Below, piece by piece: positions 11,994 through 53,117 of a stretch of DNA of 64,000 nucleotides. The first letter of the stretch is position 1. Every line of letters begins with the position of its first letter. The notes beneath the pieces were generated by a model, which was not told where the DNA came from, did no database searches, and saw only the letters and a list, made by a program, of their open reading frames with translations. Made by a program: the position numbers and the translations under genes. Source of the DNA: an uncultured Bacteroidales bacterium (GTDB taxonomy: Bacteria; Bacteroidota; Bacteroidia; Bacteroidales; Muribaculaceae); assembly GCA_902776435.1 (NCBI GenBank), contig CACYQB010000013.1, forward strand, positions 1 to 64,000, written 5' to 3'.

Positions 11994-14567
11994 TTAATTG
12001 TCTTGGGTACGGCGCAAGGGTGCGTCGTTGCCGCTGCGCTTCTTGAACGGGTTACTGATGGAGTTGATGGTCCAACGTACCATCAGCGAGATGCCCCGTG
12101 TGTAGTTATAACTATAGGTCTCATTATGCGCATTCATGTAGCGTGTTTCACTCCAGGACGGCGTGCTACGGCGGAAGATGTCATTGGCGGTTACTCCCAG
12201 CAGCAGGCGGTTCTTGAACAAAGAGGCCATGGCACTCAAGTTCACCCCAAGGATTGAGCTGTTTCTTGTGAATCCGCTGGTCCACGGTGTGCTGTAGAGC
12301 GCATTGCATCCCAGCAGGAACTTACGCGCCACGGTGAACTGGGCATTGAGCGAGAGAACGGCATAGGGCCTGTCCTCAATCCTCGTGCCATCCAGATAAG
12401 GATAGGCGACATGGGGCAGTGTCATACTCGACTGCACGCCCAGGTTTACCCATGAATTGCTGTAGTTGTAGCCCAAGTCCAGCGACCAGGCATGTGAGTG
12501 CTTGATGTTGATGGGATGCTCACTGATGATGCCCGATGGCATATACTCCACAATGCGCTGGATGGCATTGTCCATGAGCCGATAGCTCAGCGAGGAGGTG
12601 AAGCCCTTGTAGTTAGCATTCAGGGCCAACCGATGAGTCACCGACGGCTGCAACAAGGGGTTGCCTGTCGTTTCCTGATAGGTGTTGATGTAATAGGACG
12701 TGGGGCGCAGTTCGTTGTAGGTGGGTCGCCTCAATATGCGGCCGTAGTACAGCACCAGGTCAACATCATGCGACGGCTTGAATCCCACACTGGCACTGGG
12801 CAGCACGTTGTGATATGTCTTGTTGAGGACAAAGCCCTTGCTATCGGTGCGGGTGTGGTCATACTCATAGCGCAGTCCCGCATTCAGGCGCCACCTGCCC
12901 CAAGTTTTAGCCAGAGTGTAATAGACGCCGAGCCAGTCATTGTCACGTTTGTTGGTTTGTGTGAGGTCGTTCTGATGAATTACCGCATTGCTCGCAGTAT
13001 AACCCCATTCGATGCCCGTGTGATTATTCCACCCGTCGGAAACAAAGTCATATTTGGCCGAAGCCGTCACGATATTATAATCATTGGTGTCGACTATAAA
13101 GTATTGTTTAATGATTGTGGAGGACTCACCGTCGGGGTTAAGAGTAGGCTTAATATACTCATAGAGATTTTGGTCGTCTCGCTGTCGTGATGTCGCATAG
13201 TCGGCTATCAGCAGCAGTTGTGAGTGGTCATTGCGTTGCCACAGGTAACTGGCCGATGTGCTATTGCGCTTGATGATGTCTTCAGTAACTGCGAATCCGT
13301 GAAGGTATTGGGCGGTCTTCAGCCTTGAGAATTGGTCGAGATTCAATTTGCGGTAATTGCCATTGAACTGCAAGCCGAAGACGCTCTTGGGTGTGAAGGC
13401 GTAATTCAAACCAGCAAAAAACTGGAAATCATCCCCGCTGCTTTGGTAGGATGTCGAGTCAGTTTTTGTATAACTCCACGGTTCCGTATCATTTCCTGCG
13501 ATTTCGGTCAACCCTTGAGTAAAAGCGACCGTGTTTAAATGGCCATAGGAGAATGAGGCGTTGCCCGACAACTTATCGCGCTTGCCATCGATGGTGACGG
13601 TAGTGGTATTGGATTTCTTGTGTCTGATGTCGAGCACATTCATCAGGCTGGCGCCCAAATTGTCTTTGTAAGGGCTGTGGGTGTACAGCTTGACAACGGC
13701 GGCCACATTGGAGGCATATTGGGCATCAGGCTCTCGGATGATCTCCAAGCGCTTGATATTTTGCGAGGTGACGGCTTTCAGCTCTGCGTTGTTGGTGATG
13801 CGGCGGTCATTGATATAGACCTCGGTCTTGCCGTCGCGGCCGATGAGGGAGATGTCCTCGTTCATGCCCACGATAACACCGGGCGTCCAGCGCAGCAGAT
13901 CGAGTGCGTTGCCGGCATTACCCATGATGGTGCCGCCCAGGTTGCGCAGGGTGTAATTGGCGCCGTCGCGTTCAATCTGCATCTTGGCAGCAGTAACCAC
14001 GGTTTCCTTGAGGGCGGTAATGTCGGGGTACATCTTGATGGTACCCACGTTGTCACGGCTGCACAGGCGATAGGCGGGTTTGTAGCCCACGTAAGTGACA
14101 CGGGCGATGACCTTGCCGTGCTCGATGGGGATGACGAAGCGGCCGCTCTCGTTGGTCACGCCGCCTCCCACCATCGTCGAGTCGGCAGGGTTGAGCAGGG
14201 TGACGTTGGCATAGGGCATCGGCAGGTTGTGCTCATCGACCACCACGCCCTTGAGGCGGCGCTCGGTCTTAAGGATGGCCTCGACGTAGATTTCGCGGTT
14301 TTCCTTCCGGGTCATCTTGATGGGATAGAAACCGATCATCTGGCGTATGGCGTCGGGCACGGACTTGTTCTTGACCGTGGTCGTCACCTTGTAGTCCTCC
14401 AGGTCGTCATAGATGAAGACGATCTTGTAGCGGCTGGTATGTTGTTGCAGGTACTTCAGGGCATCGCTCATCGACACGTCACTGAAGGTGTGCGTGATAC
14501 TTTGTGCAACGGCCGTGAGCAGCAGGGCAAATGCCATGCACATGAGCAATGTGATGGTTCGCTTCAT
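11994..14567 (-). CDS. TonB-type outer-membrane receptor with STN domain (cassette 1)
   Basis: This 857-residue protein begins with a signal peptide (MKRTITLLMCMAFALLLTAVAQ). Next come an STN-type domain (about 23-95, FSDVSMSDALKYLQQ), a carboxypeptidase-regulatory-like domain (about 105-180, PMPYANVTLLNPADSTMVGG), a plug region and a large beta-barrel of the OMP_b-brl_3 kind. STN domains in such receptors talk to an inner-membrane anti-sigma factor. The FecR-like anti-sigma and ECF sigma genes lie directly upstream (14576-15741), so this is the receptor of a cell-surface signalling cassette. No SusD partner is present. It is the only intact copy of three in the window. The ligand is unknown. 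Confidence 0.85.
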   Translation of the reverse strand: MKRTITLLMCMAFALLLTAVAQSITHTFSDVSMSDALKYLQQHTSRYKIVFIYDDLEDYKVTTTVKNKSVPDAIRQMIGFYPIKMTRKENREIYVEAILKTERRLKGVVVDEHNLPMPYANVTLLNPADSTMVGGGVTNESGRFVIPIEHGKVIARVTYVGYKPAYRLCSRDNVGTIKMYPDITALKETVVTAAKMQIERDGANYTLRNLGGTIMGNAGNALDLLRWTPGVIVGMNEDISLIGRDGKTEVYINDRRITNNAELKAVTSQNIKRLEIIREPDAQYASNVAAVVKLYTHSPYKDNLGASLMNVLDIRHKKSNTTTVTIDGKRDKLSGNASFSYGHLNTVAFTQGLTEIAGNDTEPWSYTKTDSTSYQSSGDDFQFFAGLNYAFTPKSVFGLQFNGNYRKLNLDQFSRLKTAQYLHGFAVTEDIIKRNSTSASYLWQRNDHSQLLLIADYATSRQRDDQNLYEYIKPTLNPDGESSTIIKQYFIVDTNDYNIVTASAKYDFVSDGWNNHTGIEWGYTASNAVIHQNDLTQTNKRDNDWLGVYYTLAKTWGRWRLNAGLRYEYDHTRTDSKGFVLNKTYHNVLPSASVGFKPSHDVDLVLYYGRILRRPTYNELRPTSYYINTYQETTGNPLLQPSVTHRLALNANYKGFTSSLSYRLMDNAIQRIVEYMPSGIISEHPINIKHSHAWSLDLGYNYSNSWVNLGVQSSMTLPHVAYPYLDGTRIEDRPYAVLSLNAQFTVARKFLLGCNALYSTPWTSGFTRNSSILGVNLSAMASLFKNRLLLGVTANDIFRRSTPSWSETRYMNAHNETYSYNYTRGISLMVRWTINSISNPFKKRSGNDAPLRRTQDN

Positions 14568-18283: not shown

Positions 18284-18323
18284 ACCATATTGAAGAAGCT
18301 ATTTCTGTGCGTTAGTTTCTACA

Positions 18324-18377
18324 GGCTGTTACGCTCTTCTTGGTTATCTTGACCGTCTTTTGTGAAATCAGTGTGCT
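18324..18377 (-). pseudogene. Remnant of a gene 3' end (tail TDFTKDGQDNQEERNSL)
   Basis: Minus-strand bases here encode TDFTKDGQDNQEERNSL followed by a stop. This closely matches the end of the 123-residue protein at 22543-22914 (TDFTKDGQYNQDERNRL). Upstream the match is lost at an in-frame stop and then the anti-sigma gene. It is the stump of a deleted or replaced gene copy. Confidence 0.65.
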
Positions 18378-19999: not shown

Positions 20000-22423
20000 T
20001 TACAGGCGGCTGCGCTCGCTTTGGCCGGCATGGCCACCTTTATACCTGCTGCGGGTTGCATTGAACTTCCAAGAGACATCGATGCTTACACGCTGCGTAT
20101 AGCTGTACGAGTCAACATCTCTGCGATAATTTAGACCATCATAGTAAACCGCATTTGTCTTGTTTGTTCGGAAAATATCACTTCCCTTTAATGCAACATT
20201 TAGGCTTTTATCTTTAAGGAATTGCCGGCTTATGCGAAGATTCAAGCCCCCTGATGCCTTTTTCTGGGTGAAACCGGATTCATAATATGGAGAGAAATAG
20301 GCCTGAATGTTCAGCAGCCATGCATAAGGAAGATTCAACGTATTGTCTAACGTGAAGCTTGTTTCGATACCTTTAAATGTTTTTGTTATACCCATTGGGG
20401 TCAAATCCCTATCGGTATACCTCAAATTAGCAGAATAGTTCAACTGCCAGATTCCAATCTTAGGTGAGGCATTCAATGATAATACATAATAATTGCCTGG
20501 GGGCATTGTCACGTATTTCTTAAGGATGACACCAGGATGAGTGATATCATCAACGGCAGTGCTGAATGTCGTGTAAGAACCCTTGACATGTCCAAATGTA
20601 AGATCTATATAAAGCCATTTCCACTTGGATGACCAAGAGATAATGTGATGCACTTGGGTCTGCAAACAAGGATCACCAGTACTATAGTTATATTTATCTT
20701 CGTATGTCACATTCGGGGACAAATGATGATAGATTGGAACATACCTGCCACAGCGATAAGAGAGACTATGATACCAGTTATTGTTGCTATAACTGATGGA
20801 AGTTCTCGGAATGAGCACATGAGCATTGGGTTGAATCTCTTCTTTTCTTTCTCCATTAAGCTCATATCGGTTAAGTTCATTTTGCCATCGAACACCAGCG
20901 TTTACAGAGAATTTGTTGATTGGAACACGATAGTTGGCATATAATGACCAAGTTGTTCTCAATTGATGAATATCATTATCGTCAGAAAAGCCACTCTGAA
21001 CAAACATACTGTGACGATCAACATTTGTGATTTCTTCACCGAAAGTCAGTTCGCCCTTGGGAAGCGGAGCAGAGATAGTCAGTTTTTCAGCAATGAGTTG
21101 ACTTTTTGTATGCGTTTGGCTGCTTGCCGTAGCTTCATCATCATTAGTCATGGATGTTGATTCCTCTTCATTACGATTGCTGTAATAATCTGCACTGAAA
21201 TCCAGTTTCCACTCACCTACTTGTCCAACATAGTATGCATTGATCACATGTTTGATTCTCGGCTTTGTGATCAATTCACTGATCGCGTGGAATTCATCCA
21301 CCAATTCACCATCTTTTGTTACGAATTGATCTCCTTCAGTTTTATCTTTTGATTTCCCGATAAAATTCATCGCTGTGTAAGTGATGCCGACAGAATGTTT
21401 ATCATTTATCTGCCAGTTCCATCCTAAATCAGCATAATAAATCGAATAGTGACTACGGTTTATAGAACTGCTGTTGTACTCCCAAGTGTTCGAGGTCATC
21501 ATTCGAACATTATTTGTTGATGTGCTGTAATTGGTCCAGTCAGACACATGTCCACGAGTGAAGAAATCCATTCCGTTTTTCAGGCGATAGTTTAAATTGA
21601 CATTGATATCATCAGATGTCACTTTACTTTGCTTGTGAGCCGCATTGATATTGCCGCTCAGGCCATCGCCTTGTTTCTTGACGGTCTTGAGACGGATGAC
21701 AGATTTCACGTCCTGACCGTATTCTGGGCCGGGGTTGGTGATAATCTCTGCTGACAGAATCTTGTTGATGTAGATTTCGGGCTTGCCGTGGCCTGCGATG
21801 GTACCGTCCGCCATCATCAAGGGCAAGTGGGTCAGCATCTCAGTCACAGAGCCGAATTGCTCCAGCACAGTGCCTTGCACGTTGGCTAATATACCTCTGC
21901 TGGTGGGACGGGTCAGTTGTTTAGAGCCTTTAACGGTGACGCCATTGAGGGTGAACTGGTCGGGTTGCATCTTGATGGTACCGACATTGTCTCGATTGCA
22001 GAGGCGATGCTCGGTCTTGTAGCCCACGTAGGAGACACGTGCGATGACCTTGCCGTGGTCGTTGGGGATGACAAAACGGCCGCTCTCGTTGGTCACACCG
22101 CCACCCACCATCGTCGAGTCGGCAGGGTTGAGCAGTGTGACGTTGGCATAGGGCAGTGGCAGGTTGTTCTCGTCAACCACCAGCCCCTTGAGGCGGTGCT
22201 CGGTCTTTTGCATGCATTCCACATAGATATCGTTGTTATCACCCAGGATCATCTGGATGGGATAGAAACCGATGATCTGGCGAATGGCATCAGGAACAGG
22301 TTTGTTCTTGACATGGGTGGTAACAGTGAAGTCTTCCAGTTCGTTGTAGATAAACACGATCTTGTGGTTGCCTGTCTGCGTTGCGGGTAATGCGCTGCGC
22401 CGTAGCTGTTTCTGCCAAGGCAC
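20000..22423 (-). CDS. TonB-type outer-membrane receptor paralog (cassette 2, copy B), N-terminus frame-broken
   Basis: The main frame covers the later part of an STN-type domain (GNHKIVFIYNELEDFTV), a carboxypeptidase-regulatory-like domain, a shortened plug and an OMP_b-brl_3-type barrel. It ends with the tail GGHAGQSERSRL. The apparent start at 22423 is artificial: the true ATG with signal peptide lies at 22457 in another frame. About 18 residues of plug sequence are missing in frame at YINKILSAEIITNPG when compared with the intact copy at 11994. The barrel is about 60% alike by eye to copy C at 22941. It is probably non-functional unless the frame junction is an assembly error. Confidence 0.75.
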   Translation of the reverse strand: MPWQKQLRRSALPATQTGNHKIVFIYNELEDFTVTTHVKNKPVPDAIRQIIGFYPIQMILGDNNDIYVECMQKTEHRLKGLVVDENNLPLPYANVTLLNPADSTMVGGGVTNESGRFVIPNDHGKVIARVSYVGYKTEHRLCNRDNVGTIKMQPDQFTLNGVTVKGSKQLTRPTSRGILANVQGTVLEQFGSVTEMLTHLPLMMADGTIAGHGKPEIYINKILSAEIITNPGPEYGQDVKSVIRLKTVKKQGDGLSGNINAAHKQSKVTSDDINVNLNYRLKNGMDFFTRGHVSDWTNYSTSTNNVRMMTSNTWEYNSSSINRSHYSIYYADLGWNWQINDKHSVGITYTAMNFIGKSKDKTEGDQFVTKDGELVDEFHAISELITKPRIKHVINAYYVGQVGEWKLDFSADYYSNRNEEESTSMTNDDEATASSQTHTKSQLIAEKLTISAPLPKGELTFGEEITNVDRHSMFVQSGFSDDNDIHQLRTTWSLYANYRVPINKFSVNAGVRWQNELNRYELNGERKEEIQPNAHVLIPRTSISYSNNNWYHSLSYRCGRYVPIYHHLSPNVTYEDKYNYSTGDPCLQTQVHHIISWSSKWKWLYIDLTFGHVKGSYTTFSTAVDDITHPGVILKKYVTMPPGNYYVLSLNASPKIGIWQLNYSANLRYTDRDLTPMGITKTFKGIETSFTLDNTLNLPYAWLLNIQAYFSPYYESGFTQKKASGGLNLRISRQFLKDKSLNVALKGSDIFRTNKTNAVYYDGLNYRRDVDSYSYTQRVSIDVSWKFNATRSRYKGGHAGQSERSRL

Positions 22424-22457
22424 ATATCAACAATATGATGATTAGAATTCGTTTCAT
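22290..22457 (-). CDS. Signal-peptide fragment of TonB-type copy B
   Basis: From the ATG at 22457 the frame reads MKRILIIILLICALAETATA then QRITRN, a signal peptide plus the first mature residues seen in copy C. It then runs out of frame at the junction GCAGACAGG. Removing one G there would join it to the long receptor frame. It is therefore the 5' end of that gene, not a separate protein. Confidence 0.6.
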   Translation of the reverse strand: MKRILIIILLICALAETATAQRITRNADRQPQDRVYLQRTGRLHCYHPCQEQTCS

Positions 22458-22483
22458 CTATTTTCGTCTTATTCTTGGTAAAA

Positions 22484-22520
22484 GCAGGCAGCATCAGTGT
22501 CAAGTCTATCAGCTGCCTGC
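22484..22520. repeat. Intergenic hairpin between the small secreted protein and copy B
   Basis: GCAGGCAGC (22484-22492) pairs perfectly with GCTGCCTGC (22512-22520). It lies 22 bases past the stop at 22543 and 27 bases before the ATG at 22457, so it is in the leader of the receptor gene and could modulate its translation or stability. Confidence 0.5.
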
Positions 22521-22542
22521 CGAAAGAAGCTATTTATTTTCA

Positions 22543-22914
22543 TTACAGGCGGTTGCGCTCGTCTTGGTTATATTGTCCGTCTTTTGTGAAATCAGTTTGC
22601 CCTAGTCGTTTCAATCCGTAGGCACCAAAGTTGTAATAGCCGTTCACTAGGCAATCATCATTCATTACCAAAGTGTCAACCGTAGTTTGATAGCCTGCCG
22701 AAGTGATCGTAATTGTCGCCCAATTTTCATGATACTCTATCGTGAAAGCAGAGTCGGTGAACTGATGACAGACTTCATCTCCAGTCTTGTTGGTTAGACT
22801 AACTGTATAAGGATGTACTTGACCATCACAGAAAAACACACCTCCATGAATACCGTCAATAGCTTCAAGATTCAGCATGGCCAATGCCAAGAATATAAAT
22901 ATAAGATGTTTCAT
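22543..22914 (-). CDS. Small secreted protein with receptor-like C-terminal tail
   Basis: This 123-residue product has a signal peptide (MKHLIFIFLALAMLNLEA). The mature part is predicted beta-rich, with FTIEYHENWATITITSAGYQTT. It ends DGQYNQDERNRL, a tail very like the ends of the two TonB-type proteins beside it (QSERSRL and QAERNRL), although the rest is unrelated to them. It sits between the two receptor genes and is probably co-transcribed. A truncated copy of its 3' end survives at 18324. No family recognised; a surface accessory protein is my inference. Confidence 0.65.
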   Translation of the reverse strand: MKHLIFIFLALAMLNLEAIDGIHGGVFFCDGQVHPYTVSLTNKTGDEVCHQFTDSAFTIEYHENWATITITSAGYQTTVDTLVMNDDCLVNGYYNFGAYGLKRLGQTDFTKDGQYNQDERNRL

Positions 22915-22940
22915 AATCGTTATGTATTGTTATAATTTAG

Positions 22941-24743
22941 TTAAAGTCGGTTGCGCTCAGCCTGGCCGGCATGGCTGCCTTTGTAGCGGCTACGGGTAGC
23001 ATTGAAGCTCCAAGATACATCTATACTAATACCTTGAATGCGACTTGTAGAGTTGTAGTCTCTTCGATAACTCAAACCATTATAATAAACATACTTTTTC
23101 CTGTATGTTCTGAATATATCCGATCCCCTCACCGCAACATTCAGGCTCTTGTCTTTCAAGAATCTTCGACCGATGCGCATATTCATTGTGCATGATGCCT
23201 TTCTTTGGGTGAAGCCAGATTCATAATAAGGAGAATAATTGACTTGAATGTTCAGCAGCCATGAATATGGAAGAGTCAAGGTGTTGTCAAACGTGAAATC
23301 CGCCTCAATGCCATGGAATGTTTGTGCTATGCCCATGGGCGCTAGATCTCTGTCAGTATATGATATCGTGGCAGAATAGTTCATTTGCCAGATTCCAATT
23401 TTGGGTGAAGCATTTAAGCGCAAATAGTAATAATATCCTGATGGCATTGTAGTGTACTTTGATAGGATTACACCTGGGTGTGTGGCTTCATTAAATGGAG
23501 TGAAGAATCTTGTATAAGTGTTATCGACATGACCGAATGTGAAATCAGCATACATCCATTTCCACATGGCTTCTAAAGATAAGTCTTGATGGACTTGGGG
23601 TTGCAAAAATGGATTTCCGGCGCTATAACTATATTTGTTATTGTATTCAACTGCCGATGATAGCATACTATAAGCTGGATTCAGCCGATAACAGCGATAG
23701 GCCATGCCAAGACTCCAATCATCTTTCAGATACTTCGCAGACAAATATGGTATCACGACATGAAAGTTAGGACTCTTTTCCTCATCTCGTTTGCTGTCGA
23801 GATAATAACGGTTAATCTCATTCTGCCAGCGAACACCTGTGTTCAATGAAAACCTATTAAGGGATAAACCGTAATTTGCATAAAGAGACCAAGTCGTTGT
23901 CAGTTGATGAATATGGTTGTCTTCAGCATAACCGCTCTGAATAAAATCGCTATAACGATTGACATTAGTCACTTCTTCACCAAAGGTCAGTTCTCCTTTT
24001 GGGACAGGAGCGGTAATCGTCAGTTTCTCTGCAAAAAATTGGTTCTTCGTTTGTGTGATGCTACTTGCACTGTTTTCCCCATTAGTGGTTGTATTGATTT
24101 CTTGCTCCGATCGATTGCGATAATAATCTGCGCTGAAATCCAAGGTCCACTTACCAATTTGCCCCAGATAATATGCGTTTACAGTTCGACTAATCCGAGG
24201 CTTGGATAGAGATTTACTGTAGGTGTGGATAACATCAACGAGTTCTCCGTCTTTATAGACCTCTTTCTCTCCATCCTCTTCTGACGTGCCATTTCCCACA
24301 TAACTATATGCATAGTATGTCACACCGATTGAATGATAGTCATTAATTTGCCAGTTCCACCCAAAGTCACCATTTAGATAGACACTGTTTTGTCGGTTCT
24401 TAGAATGAGAATTATAGTCCCAAATGCTTGAGGTGGACATCGTTTCAATAACGCCAGCCGAAGAAAGTTGGTTCCAGTCCATAAGTTGCCCACGGGTGAA
24501 GAAATCCATGCCGTTCTTCAACCGATAGTTAAGGGACAGATTGAACCGTTCATATGCCACATTTTTTTGGTTATACTCTGCACTGACATTTCCGCTCAGA
24601 CCATCGCCTTGTTTCTTGACGGTCTTGAGACGGATGACAGATTTCACGTCCTGACCGTATTCTGGGCCGGGGTTGGTGATAATCTCTGCTGACAGAATCT
24701 TTCTTGTTGTTGATATAGATTTCAGGCGTGCCATGGCCAGCAA
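22941..24743 (-). CDS. TonB-type receptor paralog (cassette 2, copy C), barrel part
   Basis: The frame becomes meaningful at ILSAEIITNPGPEYGQDVKSVIRLKTV, the end of the plug. It then runs through a complete OMP_b-brl_3-type beta-barrel to RYKGSHAGQAERNRL. The residues before ILSAE are out-of-frame noise (MLAMARLKS), so 24743 is not a true start. The upstream domains are encoded in the neighbouring frame (24571-25302), and the frame is lost near 24700. With copy B it forms a tandem pair behind one sigma/anti-sigma pair. Confidence 0.75.
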   Translation of the reverse strand: MLAMARLKSISTTRKILSAEIITNPGPEYGQDVKSVIRLKTVKKQGDGLSGNVSAEYNQKNVAYERFNLSLNYRLKNGMDFFTRGQLMDWNQLSSAGVIETMSTSSIWDYNSHSKNRQNSVYLNGDFGWNWQINDYHSIGVTYYAYSYVGNGTSEEDGEKEVYKDGELVDVIHTYSKSLSKPRISRTVNAYYLGQIGKWTLDFSADYYRNRSEQEINTTTNGENSASSITQTKNQFFAEKLTITAPVPKGELTFGEEVTNVNRYSDFIQSGYAEDNHIHQLTTTWSLYANYGLSLNRFSLNTGVRWQNEINRYYLDSKRDEEKSPNFHVVIPYLSAKYLKDDWSLGMAYRCYRLNPAYSMLSSAVEYNNKYSYSAGNPFLQPQVHQDLSLEAMWKWMYADFTFGHVDNTYTRFFTPFNEATHPGVILSKYTTMPSGYYYYLRLNASPKIGIWQMNYSATISYTDRDLAPMGIAQTFHGIEADFTFDNTLTLPYSWLLNIQVNYSPYYESGFTQRKASCTMNMRIGRRFLKDKSLNVAVRGSDIFRTYRKKYVYYNGLSYRRDYNSTSRIQGISIDVSWSFNATRSRYKGSHAGQAERNRL

Positions 24744-25302
24744 TGGTACCGTCCGCCATCATCAAGGGCAAGTGAGACAGCATCTCAGTCACAGAGCCAA
24801 ATTGTTCCAACACTGTGCCTTGGACATTTGCGAGCAAACCGCGGTCAGTTGGTCGGGTTAATCGTTTGGAACCCTTGACTGTTACACCGTCAAGAGTAAA
24901 GTTATCTAGTTGCATCTTGATGGTGCCCACGTTGTCACGGCTACACACGAGATAGGTAGGCTTGTAGCCCACGTAGGTGATACGGGCGATGACCTTGCTG
25001 TGGTCGTTGGGGATGACGAAACGGCCGCTCTCGTTGGTCACACCGCCGCCCACCATCGTCGAGTCGGCAGGGTTGAGCAGTGTGACGTTGGCGTATGGCA
25101 GTGGCAGGTTGTTCTCGTCAACCACCAGCCCCTTGAGGTGGTGCTCGGTCTTGTGAATGCATTCCACATAAATATCGTTGTTATCACCCAGAGTCATCTC
25201 GATGGGATAAAAACCTATGATCTGCCGAATGGCATCAGGAACAGGTTTGTTCTTGACATGGGTGGTAACAGTGAAGTCTTCCAGTTCGTTGTAGATAAAC
25301 AC
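24571..25302 (-). CDS. TonB-type receptor copy C, STN / regulatory / plug part
   Basis: This part carries KIVFIYNELEDFTVTTHVKNKPVPDAIRQIIG (late STN domain), then PLPYANVTLLNPADSTMVGG (carboxypeptidase-regulatory-like) and the plug start (VTEMLSHLPLMMADG). Coding sense ends at EIYINNKK, after which the frame slips. The reading frame really enters from about 25343, joined out of frame to the signal peptide at 25432. The domain block is almost identical at DNA level to copies A and B, unlike the barrels. Confidence 0.72.
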   Translation of the reverse strand: MFIYNELEDFTVTTHVKNKPVPDAIRQIIGFYPIEMTLGDNNDIYVECIHKTEHHLKGLVVDENNLPLPYANVTLLNPADSTMVGGGVTNESGRFVIPNDHSKVIARITYVGYKPTYLVCSRDNVGTIKMQLDNFTLDGVTVKGSKRLTRPTDRGLLANVQGTVLEQFGSVTEMLSHLPLMMADGTIAGHGTPEIYINNKKDSVSRDYHQPRPRIRSGREICHPSQDRQETRRWSERKCQCRV

Positions 25303-25432
25303 GATCTTGTGGTTGCCTGTCTGCCAGCGCGTCGCTCATCGACACGTTCTGGAAGTTACGGGTTATGCGCTGCGCGTGTGCTATGCCTGCTAAGGAGCAC
25401 AGCAATAGTATCATGGTAAATAGTCTCTTCAT
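25235..25432 (-). CDS. TonB-type receptor copy C, signal peptide and first STN residues
   Basis: From the ATG at 25432 the frame gives MKRLFTMILLLCSLAGIAHA, then QRITRNFQNVSMSDAL, which matches the STN start of the intact copy at 11994. It then loses frame at the junction GCAGACAGG. Compared with copy A about 11 bases are missing. The ATG lies at the stop of the FecR-like gene. This is the 5' end of the broken copy C gene. Confidence 0.65.
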   Translation of the reverse strand: MKRLFTMILLLCSLAGIAHAQRITRNFQNVSMSDALADRQPQDRVYLQRTGRLHCYHPCQEQTCS

Positions 25433-26100
25433 TACTTGCCCTCCTGTGCTGATTCAACAATGAGTTTGTTGCCCTCACGAGAGATGCTGAGCGACTCGAA
25501 GTGGGACAGCATGTCCACGACCATATCGAGGGAATAGTCCGGCTCCCACTCATAATAGAGACGCAACGAGCGCACATCGTCGGTGCGGTATTCCACGTCA
25601 ACGTGGTAATAGGCAGCGAGTTCGGCCAGCATCTGCTCCAGCGGTACGTTGTCATAGAGCCGGGGCTCGGCCATGACAGTAGCCGTCAATGAGTCGGTGG
25701 ATTGCTCAATAGTCTCTGGAGCCGTGTCGGCGGTGACGGCAGGGGTTTCAGGCTTGACAACGGCTGTCTCCTCTATCGTCTGCTTTTGCAGGCCGAAGAA
25801 ACCTGTCTTAACGGCGGCATAGGAGACTCCGAAGAGAACCAAAGCAATCGCGGCGGTCGCGGCGACTTTGCGCCACAAGGGGATAATGGTAGCGCGAGGA
25901 CGTTGCGACTGGGCCAGACGTTGCCATTCGGCATCAATGGTCTCGCCGCTCACCTCGGGCGACGGGGCGGTACTCTTGACTTTCGCCATCAGGGTATAAA
26001 GTTCACGGCACTCGTCATCGGCAAGGATCTCTTGCCATTGTGCCTCGCTGTAACGCTCGGGTTGTTCCAGCATCTGGAATAGTAAATCGGTCTTGTTCAT
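25432..26100 (-). CDS. Short FecR-like anti-sigma factor (cassette 2)
   Basis: The 222-residue product has the same length and layout as its paralog at 14576-15244. The N-terminus contains LADDECRELYTLMAK, one membrane helix (about 85-105, AATAAIALVLFGVSYAAV) is followed by a Pro/Thr-rich linker, and the C-terminal DUF4974/STN-like domain runs DNVPLEQMLAELAAYYHVDVEY to the end. The central FecR domain is absent. It lies 54 bases after the sigma stop and touches the broken receptor copy C. It would hold the adjacent ECF factor and sense the receptor STN domains, which in this cassette are both damaged. Confidence 0.8.
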   Translation of the reverse strand: MNKTDLLFQMLEQPERYSEAQWQEILADDECRELYTLMAKVKSTAPSPEVSGETIDAEWQRLAQSQRPRATIIPLWRKVAATAAIALVLFGVSYAAVKTGFFGLQKQTIEETAVVKPETPAVTADTAPETIEQSTDSLTATVMAEPRLYDNVPLEQMLAELAAYYHVDVEYRTDDVRSLRLYYEWEPDYSLDMVVDMLSHFESLSISREGNKLIVESAQEGK

Positions 26101-26154: not shown

Positions 26155-26655
26155 TTACGCCTCATTTCTCTTAAGTGTTATACGAAGTTGATCGAGTGCG
26201 CTGTGCAGGTGCTTGTAGATGGTAGTATGGCTTACGCCCAGACGACGAGCGACCTCGGTCAAGGCTACACCTTCATGAAAATGCAGGCGTATCACCTCTC
26301 GGCACACAGGCGGAACCAGAGCATCGATGCCCTTGCTGAGCACTTCAATTTCGCGCTCAAGGTCCTCGGGCGAAGTCTGTTCCGCTACAGTGTCGGGAAT
26401 GAGGTACTGCTGCAACTGGGCATGCAACTTGCGGTCACGCATCACGTTCAGGCACTGGTTGCGCACGCATGACAACAGAAAAGGCAAGACGGTCGTTTCA
26501 CGCAGTTCCGTTTGTTCCACAAGCAACTTGGCAAAGACGTCGTGCACAACGTCCTTGCTGTCGTCATCGTCGTGCAACAGCAGGTAAGCCAGCCGATGCA
26601 TCGCACTGTAATGTTGCCTGAACAGCCCCTCGATATGTCTTTCTCTGTCTGTCAT
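26155..26655 (-). CDS. ECF RNA polymerase sigma factor (cassette 2)
   Basis: From the ATG at 26655 (MTDRERHIEGLFRQHY) the product has 166 residues. Region 2 is seen as HYSAMHRLAYLLLHDDDDSKDVVHDVFAKLL, and region 4 as FHEGVALTEVARRLGVSHTTIYKHL. It is a paralog of the sigma factor at 15241-15741, including the VPFLLSCVRNQCLNVMRDRK-like stretch. Leader sequences of the two genes are partly conserved. It heads an operon of FecR-like anti-sigma, receptor copy C, a small secreted protein and receptor copy B. Confidence 0.87.
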   Translation of the reverse strand: MTDRERHIEGLFRQHYSAMHRLAYLLLHDDDDSKDVVHDVFAKLLVEQTELRETTVLPFLLSCVRNQCLNVMRDRKLHAQLQQYLIPDTVAEQTSPEDLEREIEVLSKGIDALVPPVCREVIRLHFHEGVALTEVARRLGVSHTTIYKHLHSALDQLRITLKRNEA

Positions 26656-26790
26656 ACACTCTATATACACACAGAAACCGATTTTTTAAACCCCAAACGG
26701 AGTTTTTTTCTCATTTTTTTCGCTATCAGTTTTGACGTTGCAAAAATACTTGAATATTACACTAAACGCCAATACCTAAATGGGTGTTTT
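26656..26790 (-). promoter_or_regulatory. Leader and promoter region of sigma cassette 2
   Basis: On the minus strand it contains an ACCCATTTAGGTATTGG box, a good -7 match TATTTTTG near 26740, then AAACTGATAGCG, CTCCGTTTGGGG and GTGTATATAGAGTGTATGACAG. The order is shared with 19835-19940 and partly with 15757-15835, suggesting common regulation. Confidence 0.5.
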
Positions 26791-51988: not shown

Positions 51989-52645
51989 TTATACCAAGTA
52001 TTCCGTAGTGTCATCAATGCCTGCGTCCTTGAGGGCCTGGCGGCGCTCGGTGCAGGTGCCGCAGGTGCCGCAGTGCTTCTCGCCTCCCTTGTAGCAGGAG
52101 TAGGTCTCGCTGTAGTCCAGCCCCAGGGCTGCACCGTGGCGGGCGATGTCGGCTTTGCTCAAGTCGGTATAGGGGGCATAAACCTTAACGCCCTCGTAGG
52201 TACCCGTCATCATGGCCGTGCTCATTGCCTCGATGAAGGGCGACCGGCAATCGGGATAGATGCTGTGGTCACCGGCGTGGTTGGCAATCATCACACGCTT
52301 GAGGCCGTTGCTCTCGGCGATGCCGCATGCGATCGCCAGCATGATGCCGTTGCGGAAGGGAACGACGGTCGCCTTCATGTTCTCGTCATCATAGTTGCCG
52401 TCGGGGATGGCATCGGCACTCTCGAGCAGGGCGCTCTTGAAATACTTGTGCATGAAATCCAATGGTATGATCAGGTGCTTGATGCCCAGGCGCTGGCAGT
52501 GCATGATGGCACAGCGGCGCTCACGGCCGTTCTGGGTGCTGCCGTAGTCAAAGGTGATGGCCAGGGCAATCTCGTCCTTGTACTCATAAAGCATGGTCGT
52601 CGAGTCCATGCCGCCCGAGGTGATGATAACTGCGTCCTTTGCCAT
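51989..52645 (-). CDS. queC: 7-cyano-7-deazaguanine synthase
   Basis: QueC converts carboxydeazaguanine to preQ0 with ATP and ammonia. I use the ATG at 52645 (MAKDAVIITSGGMDSTTMLY); the longer frame upstream is overlap with queF. The 218-residue protein has the PP-loop SGGMDST, FDYGSTQNGRE, and the zinc-binding Cys group CYKGGEKHCGTCGTC near the end. It begins one base after the queF stop, so the two are translated together. Its partners queD and queE lie 1.2-2.8 kb away on the other strand. Confidence 0.94.
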   Translation of the reverse strand: MAKDAVIITSGGMDSTTMLYEYKDEIALAITFDYGSTQNGRERRCAIMHCQRLGIKHLIIPLDFMHKYFKSALLESADAIPDGNYDDENMKATVVPFRNGIMLAIACGIAESNGLKRVMIANHAGDHSIYPDCRSPFIEAMSTAMMTGTYEGVKVYAPYTDLSKADIARHGAALGLDYSETYSCYKGGEKHCGTCGTCTERRQALKDAGIDDTTEYLV

Positions 52646-52646
52646 A

Positions 52647-53117
52647 TCAATCGTTATGGAAGTTGCTGATGAGGCGCATGCGCACCATGTCCTGATGATC
52701 GCTGTCGCCATAGTTGGCAAACGGCTTGATGCTGATGCCACCACGAGGGTTGAACAGGCCGATGACCTCCAGATACTTGGGGTCCATCAACTTGACCAGG
52801 TCCTTCATGATGATGTTCACGCAATCCTCATGGAAATCGCCGTGGTTGCGGAAACTGAAGAGGTACAGCTTCAGGCTCTTGCTCTCGACCATGCGCACGC
52901 GCGGGATATAATTGATGATGATGTGGCCAAAGTCGGGCTGACCCGTCTTGGGGCACAACGAAGTGAACTCGGGGCAGTCGAGAGTCACCACATATTCGTT
53001 CTCGGGGTGCTTGTTCTCAAAGGTTTCCAGCACGTCGGGACGATAATCGAACTCATATTGCGTACCCTGGTTGCCGAGCAGCGTTACACCCTCTAATTCT
53101 TGTTCTGTTCTTGACAT
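52647..53117 (-). CDS. queF: NADPH-dependent 7-cyano-7-deazaguanine reductase
   Basis: QueF reduces the nitrile of preQ0 to the amine preQ1. The 156-residue protein has the catalytic Cys in [14 protein letters not shown] (near residue 55), and the QueF motif [21 protein letters not shown]. The length fits the short, single-domain QueF. It is the first gene of the queF-queC pair and has a TACCTTTG promoter box at 53149-53156. No preQ1 riboswitch was seen in its short leader. Confidence 0.94.

Follow-up and report, generated by a model that had tools for sequence, protein, structure and literature searches.

Two tandem genes for putative TonB-dependent receptors, here called B and C, carry four apparent lesions in the draft genome of an uncultured Bacteroidales bacterium (Muribaculaceae). 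We infer with high confidence, short of proof, that the four junctions are local errors of short-read de Bruijn-graph assembly and that none of them is a real feature of the genome. A biological event common to the two paralogs is not needed. A false biological signal is hereby removed, and the case becomes an ordinary one. The window analysed is the stretch of 64,000 nucleotides at the start of contig CACYQB010000013.1, to which the coordinates refer; repeats were searched in the full contig of 106,306 bp.

Tandem receptor genes and their four junctions

Gene B (20000..22457, minus strand) combines a CarboxypepD_reg-like domain with an OMP_b-brl_3 barrel, and its open reading frame (ORF) is open 3′ of the junction in the STN region. 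In gene C (22941..25432, minus strand), which displays OMP_b-brl_3 and TonB_dep_Rec barrel matches, two junctions split the ORF into three open pieces, the OMP_b-brl_3 barrel lying in the open 3′ part. The two genes form a head-to-tail tandem on the minus strand, behind genes for an ECF sigma factor (26155..26670, minus strand; sigma-70 regions 2 and 4 matched) and a FecR-type anti-sigma factor (FecR_C; 25432..26100, minus strand), the former upstream of the latter and the latter upstream of C. A third copy, paralog A (11994..14567, minus strand; 857 amino acids), is intact and was used as a control; it harbours no lesion, and its longest exact run shared with B or C is 32 bases. Pfam matches to PF14905 in A, B and C and to PF00593 in A and C identify barrels of the TonB-dependent receptor kind. 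The FecR and ECF sigma factor genes are adjacent to C, and A likewise has a FecR_C gene upstream.

The gene order of sigma factor, FecR and receptor is common to this locus and to the FecA-like TonB-dependent receptors found beside FecR and ECF sigma factor genes in Bacteroidota. The CarboxypepD_reg-like domain together with the OMP_b-brl_3 barrel is also common to B and the FecA-like receptors, and the Plug domain was matched in A. Unlike in those systems, the STN domain (PF07660) stays below the Pfam cut-off here even in two intact relatives, and the STN label used below is taken from these weak matches (E 0.0028 and 0.0069). A further difference is the apparent breaks, which, within the searches made, are confined to this assembly. 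In the living bacterium, B and C are probably full-length genes for FecA-like TonB-dependent receptors that act together with the FecR protein and the ECF sigma factor encoded next to them. As to the surroundings, the N-terminal region of A (14202-14567) gave a weak FecR_C match (E 0.00051, below the cut-off) and no STN match. An ORF of 123 amino acids between B and C (22543-22914) matches no Pfam family at E 0.001, and the region at its 3′ end (22534-22600) is 87% identical to 18312-18376 over 67 bp.

At the STN junction, B reads CGCAAC followed by GCAGACAGGCAACC, and C reads GCGCTG followed by GCAGACAGGCAACC, so that different signal-peptide sequences precede the same right side. An earlier note on this DNA had described distinct signal-peptide ends of B and C joined to an identical sequence that begins with GCAGACAGGC, with left ends 30 bp apart, a common right end and, at both joins, a signal peptide shifted by one base from the frame of the rest. 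We confirmed each of these points by reading the two sequences and their frames. Since 30, the distance between the two left ends, is a multiple of 3, the frame error is equal in B and C. The note's estimates of about 41 missing bases in B and 11 in C had to be corrected: in comparison with intact relatives of the same genus, 44 bp are missing from B (junction at 22379..22380, minus strand) and 14 bp from C (junction at 25324..25325, minus strand), each loss producing a frameshift. Our own reading with copy A as the reference gives the same lengths. To the right of the junction, B is identical to C over a tract of 99 bp (22281..22379, minus strand), which starts exactly at the STN junction and stops at the first mismatch between the two genes. 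The copy of this tract in C (25226..25324, minus strand) also starts exactly at the junction. In alignments of the STN site with relatives, no microhomology was seen between the joined ends.

The plug region of B and C contains a second pair of joins with the same pattern, which the earlier note had not described. Here B and C share an identical tract of 101 bp, located at 21663..21763 in B and at 24601..24701 in C (both minus strand). The join of B, at 21763, lacks 48 bp at the 5′ edge and remains in frame. The join of C, at 24701, lacks 41 bp at the 5′ edge and produces the second of the two frameshifts of this gene, phased differently from the STN break. Each gene therefore contains two joins, and at the STN and plug sites alike the right end is common and the loss on the left side is larger in B. 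The plug residues missing in B were present in all 20 rows compared, some of which are the same gene fetched twice.

Independent random deletion had been considered hard to reconcile with a shared right end and different left ends. This part of the earlier argument stands and now extends to two sites; in view of the shared right ends at four joins, we reject independent random deletions. The identical frame error at the two STN joins would also be expected of a programmed frameshift or recoding site that links the signal peptide to the body of the receptor. We regard the chance of this as practically nil, since coding sequence is itself missing and not merely out of frame, C has a second and differently phased break, and the relatives need no frameshift.

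Overlap length of the assembly

The longest runs of exact identity between B and C, 101 and 99 bp, lie exactly at the two junction sites; the next are 44, 42 and 32 bp. Because the two longest runs coincide with the two junction sites, the pattern is not a matter of chance. Exact repeats of at least 50 bp in the 106,306-bp contig comprise only the 101-bp tract, the 99-bp tract and one repeat of 54 bp. Inverted exact repeats were searched down to the same length of 50 bp and none was found in the contig; within this limit of length, we reject phase variation based on inversion.

We surveyed 86 tips of 43 contigs from the same draft genome. Two of them consist entirely of N and were dropped, leaving 84 readable tips. 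Twenty pairs of tips share at least 40 bp, and in 14 of them the shared length is exactly 99 bp; 28 tips take part in these 99-bp pairs. The remaining six pairs share 84, 80, 80, 79, 78 and 59 bp, and their deviation from 99 bp counts against an assembly artefact. As 14 of the 20 sharing pairs agree exactly, we take the overlap length of the assembly to be 99 bp. At both sites in B and C, the breakpoint lies one such overlap length before the two genes diverge. This is direct at the STN site, with its 99 bp; the 101 bp at the plug site are 99 bases plus two that, in comparison with intact relatives, also continue both left pieces. Since the overlap length is 99 bp, the shared right breakpoint can be read as the start of two unitigs with the same overlap. 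The earlier note had named an assembly collapse as the finding that would overturn its reading of a shared breakpoint, and it is this alternative that the 99-bp geometry favours.

An overlap of 99 bp fits IDBA-UD run at maxk 100, which is its default, and fits equally well assemblers run at k = 99. According to passages of PMC10914622, the end sequences left by assemblers have the length maxK in the case of metaSPAdes and MEGAHIT and maxK-1 in the case of IDBA_UD; for the latter, the same passages advise the use of contigs over scaffolds, since scaffolding may introduce errors. Excerpts from the descriptions of two rumen genome collections (PMC6785717, PMC7469290) mention IDBA-UD for part of the assembly.

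The junctions most likely arose as follows. The conserved 5′ blocks of B and C are identical over at least the overlap length of the graph, and an assembler would split such blocks into separate unitigs. Those for the bodies of B and C would then both start with the same 99-bp overlap preceding the base at which the genes diverge. Each body would have been butted against its own upstream piece, either the signal peptide or the 5′ portion of the plug, with loss of the short intervening sequence. The common right end would then mark where the shared 99-bp overlap begins, and each left end would lie wherever its upstream piece stopped. The join itself was probably made by the assembler, by scaffolding or by local gap closing. 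This model does not account for the exact sizes of the losses (44, 14, 48 and 41 bp), a point against it.

Known errors of short-read metagenome assembly, as described in parts of PMC7111523 and PMC10914622, share with the present case their location at repeats, the breaking of protein-coding genes and a fixed tip overlap of maxK or maxK-1. Unlike those errors, the same error occurs here twice in tandem paralogs and without N, and it thereby mimics a shared biological breakpoint. This offers a simple check for metagenome drafts: when a breakpoint common to two paralogs lies exactly one tip-overlap length before their first difference, the assembler should be suspected. Multi-copy receptor genes are likely sites of such errors, and an apparent pseudogene of this class should be counted only if reads support it.

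Comparison with relatives and paralogs

The earlier note had proposed to look in other strains for full-length versions. Among 16 rows covering the STN site, 15 were read in frame, representing 14 relatives and one paralog from the same genome; the 16th is cut by the start of its contig. The counts for the STN site (16 rows) and the plug region (20 rows) cover only loci on the plus strand as fetched, with minus-strand loci excluded. Of 101 genomes of the genus, 17 contain a motif of the intact STN site, which is absent from the genome under study. Searches of other genomes covered three of the four junctions, those of the STN site in both genes and that of the plug site in C, and each was found in its own genome only: the STN junction of B (at most 2 mismatches) in one genome out of 101 of the genus, the STN junction of C (at most 2 mismatches) in 1 of 297 family genomes, an even draw from the larger family, and the plug junction of C (at most 3 mismatches) again in one out of 101 of the genus. 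Nineteen of the 20 named loci are titled as uncultured bacteria or metagenome-assembled genomes (MAGs), several from ruminant gut sites, and the twentieth, from Prevotella aff. ruminicola Tc2-24, is an open copy.

Within the genome itself, 7 of 23 candidate places of the gene family were scored. Copies A, C23, C17, C3 and C22 are open, the match to C22 being without the N-terminal part, and lesions among the seven are confined to B, in which the match begins at query residue 41, and to C, which has one stop. The longest exact run that A, C23, C17 or C3 shares with B or C is 41 bases, C22 having been left out of this comparison.

The remainder of B and C was then compared with close relatives. 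From position 373 onwards, C aligns with a gene of relative G048 with 2089 of 2120 aligned bases identical, and when gaps in either sequence are counted, the 41-bp gap is the sole indel. The barrel of C differs from that of G048 by 6 changes in 552 codons (5 synonymous, 1 nonsynonymous), and the barrel of B differs from that of relative G060 by 48 changes in 562 codons (13 synonymous, 35 nonsynonymous) with no indels. Because C from position 373, apart from the 41-bp gap, and the barrel of B are free of indels, the compared parts show no decay elsewhere, and on this ground we reject a general decay of the two genes. In the parts and genomes compared, neither further decay nor independent support for the lesions, as would mark a pair of pseudogenes made by recombination, was found. 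One other candidate frameshift in the window, at 51989-53117, proved to be two overlapping ORFs that match QueC and QueF, which are separate families, and involves no lesion.

A quite improbable alternative is that the lesions are real, and that the tandem paralogs exchanged sequence, by recombination or gene conversion, with an error at the edge of the exchanged tract that very recently inactivated both receptors and gave them the same right end. Exchange is plausible in that B and C are alike in their conserved 5′ parts and different in their barrels, a copied tract would yield a common right end, and indels occur in the same blocks of other MAGs. The number of events required speaks against it: the two genes would have to have suffered four deletions, and the right edge of every one would lie 99 bp before a mismatch between B and C, a distance equal to the commonest tip overlap. 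In addition, the compared parts of B and C carry no other damage, and none of the three junctions searched for occurs in another genome. In the literature searched, no paper linked gene conversion with the TonB-dependent receptors of Bacteroidetes.

Assembly artefact remains our preferred reading, and the conserved block also coincides with contig ends elsewhere. In G048, a gene resembling C seems to be divided between two contigs at a point within the same block, if its two pieces are, as seems probable, one gene. Contig ends of several other relatives were also seen in this block.

Apparent indels and possible exchange in conserved receptor blocks

The same conserved receptor blocks contain indels in other MAGs. 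These measure 69 bp, in frame, in G060 (loci L099/L047), 22 bp in a sheep MAG (L054), 128 bp in RUG12992 (L053) and 91 bp in G080 (L090), the last in comparison with C, which itself lacks 14 bp. At none of these four lesions was a 99-bp partner found among the sequences compared. The longest partner on the right side outside the same gene is 42 bp for L053, 97 bp for L054, 15 bp for G060 and 66 bp for G080; on the left side there is none for L053, and the lengths are 75 bp for L054, 128 bp for G060 and 277 bp for G080. The lesions of other MAGs may be real indels of this gene family or may be artefacts, either of the kind proposed for B and C or of a different kind. As none of them showed a partner of 99 bp, the mechanism proposed for B and C receives no confirmation from these lesions. 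We also noted that the bases with which the right end in L053 begins are those at the start of contig G048:C62.

If these indels are real, recombination among the conserved blocks would merit attention. For B and C, real recombination is unlikely because of the 99-bp match. We consider it very improbable that recombination among the 5′ blocks generated real paired deletions, sharing their right ends, by which the bacterium switches its receptors off, the length of 99 bp being a coincidence. Phase variation can affect receptor families of Bacteroidales, and with the indels in the relatives' copies this would suit a mixture of strains, in which the deletions belong to one strain and the genes of others are intact, the receptors being inactivated reversibly or by phase variation. 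Such a mixture is extremely unlikely here, taking into account the 99-bp geometry, the lack of microhomology between the joined STN ends in comparison with relatives, and the lack of an inverted exact repeat of at least 50 bp in the contig.

A block of 100 bp in B (21858-21957) is identical to G060 (L099) and adjoins blocks of lower identity, while further blocks of B resemble C more closely. The genes thus look like mosaics in their 5′ halves, formed either by real exchange or by chimeric assembly. The barrel of B (20003-21690) gave a dN/dS of about 0.7 against G060, indicating fast change. The barrel of C (22944-24600) is nearly identical to the copy in G048, another species, with a dN/dS of about 0.05, which raises the possibility of a recent transfer.
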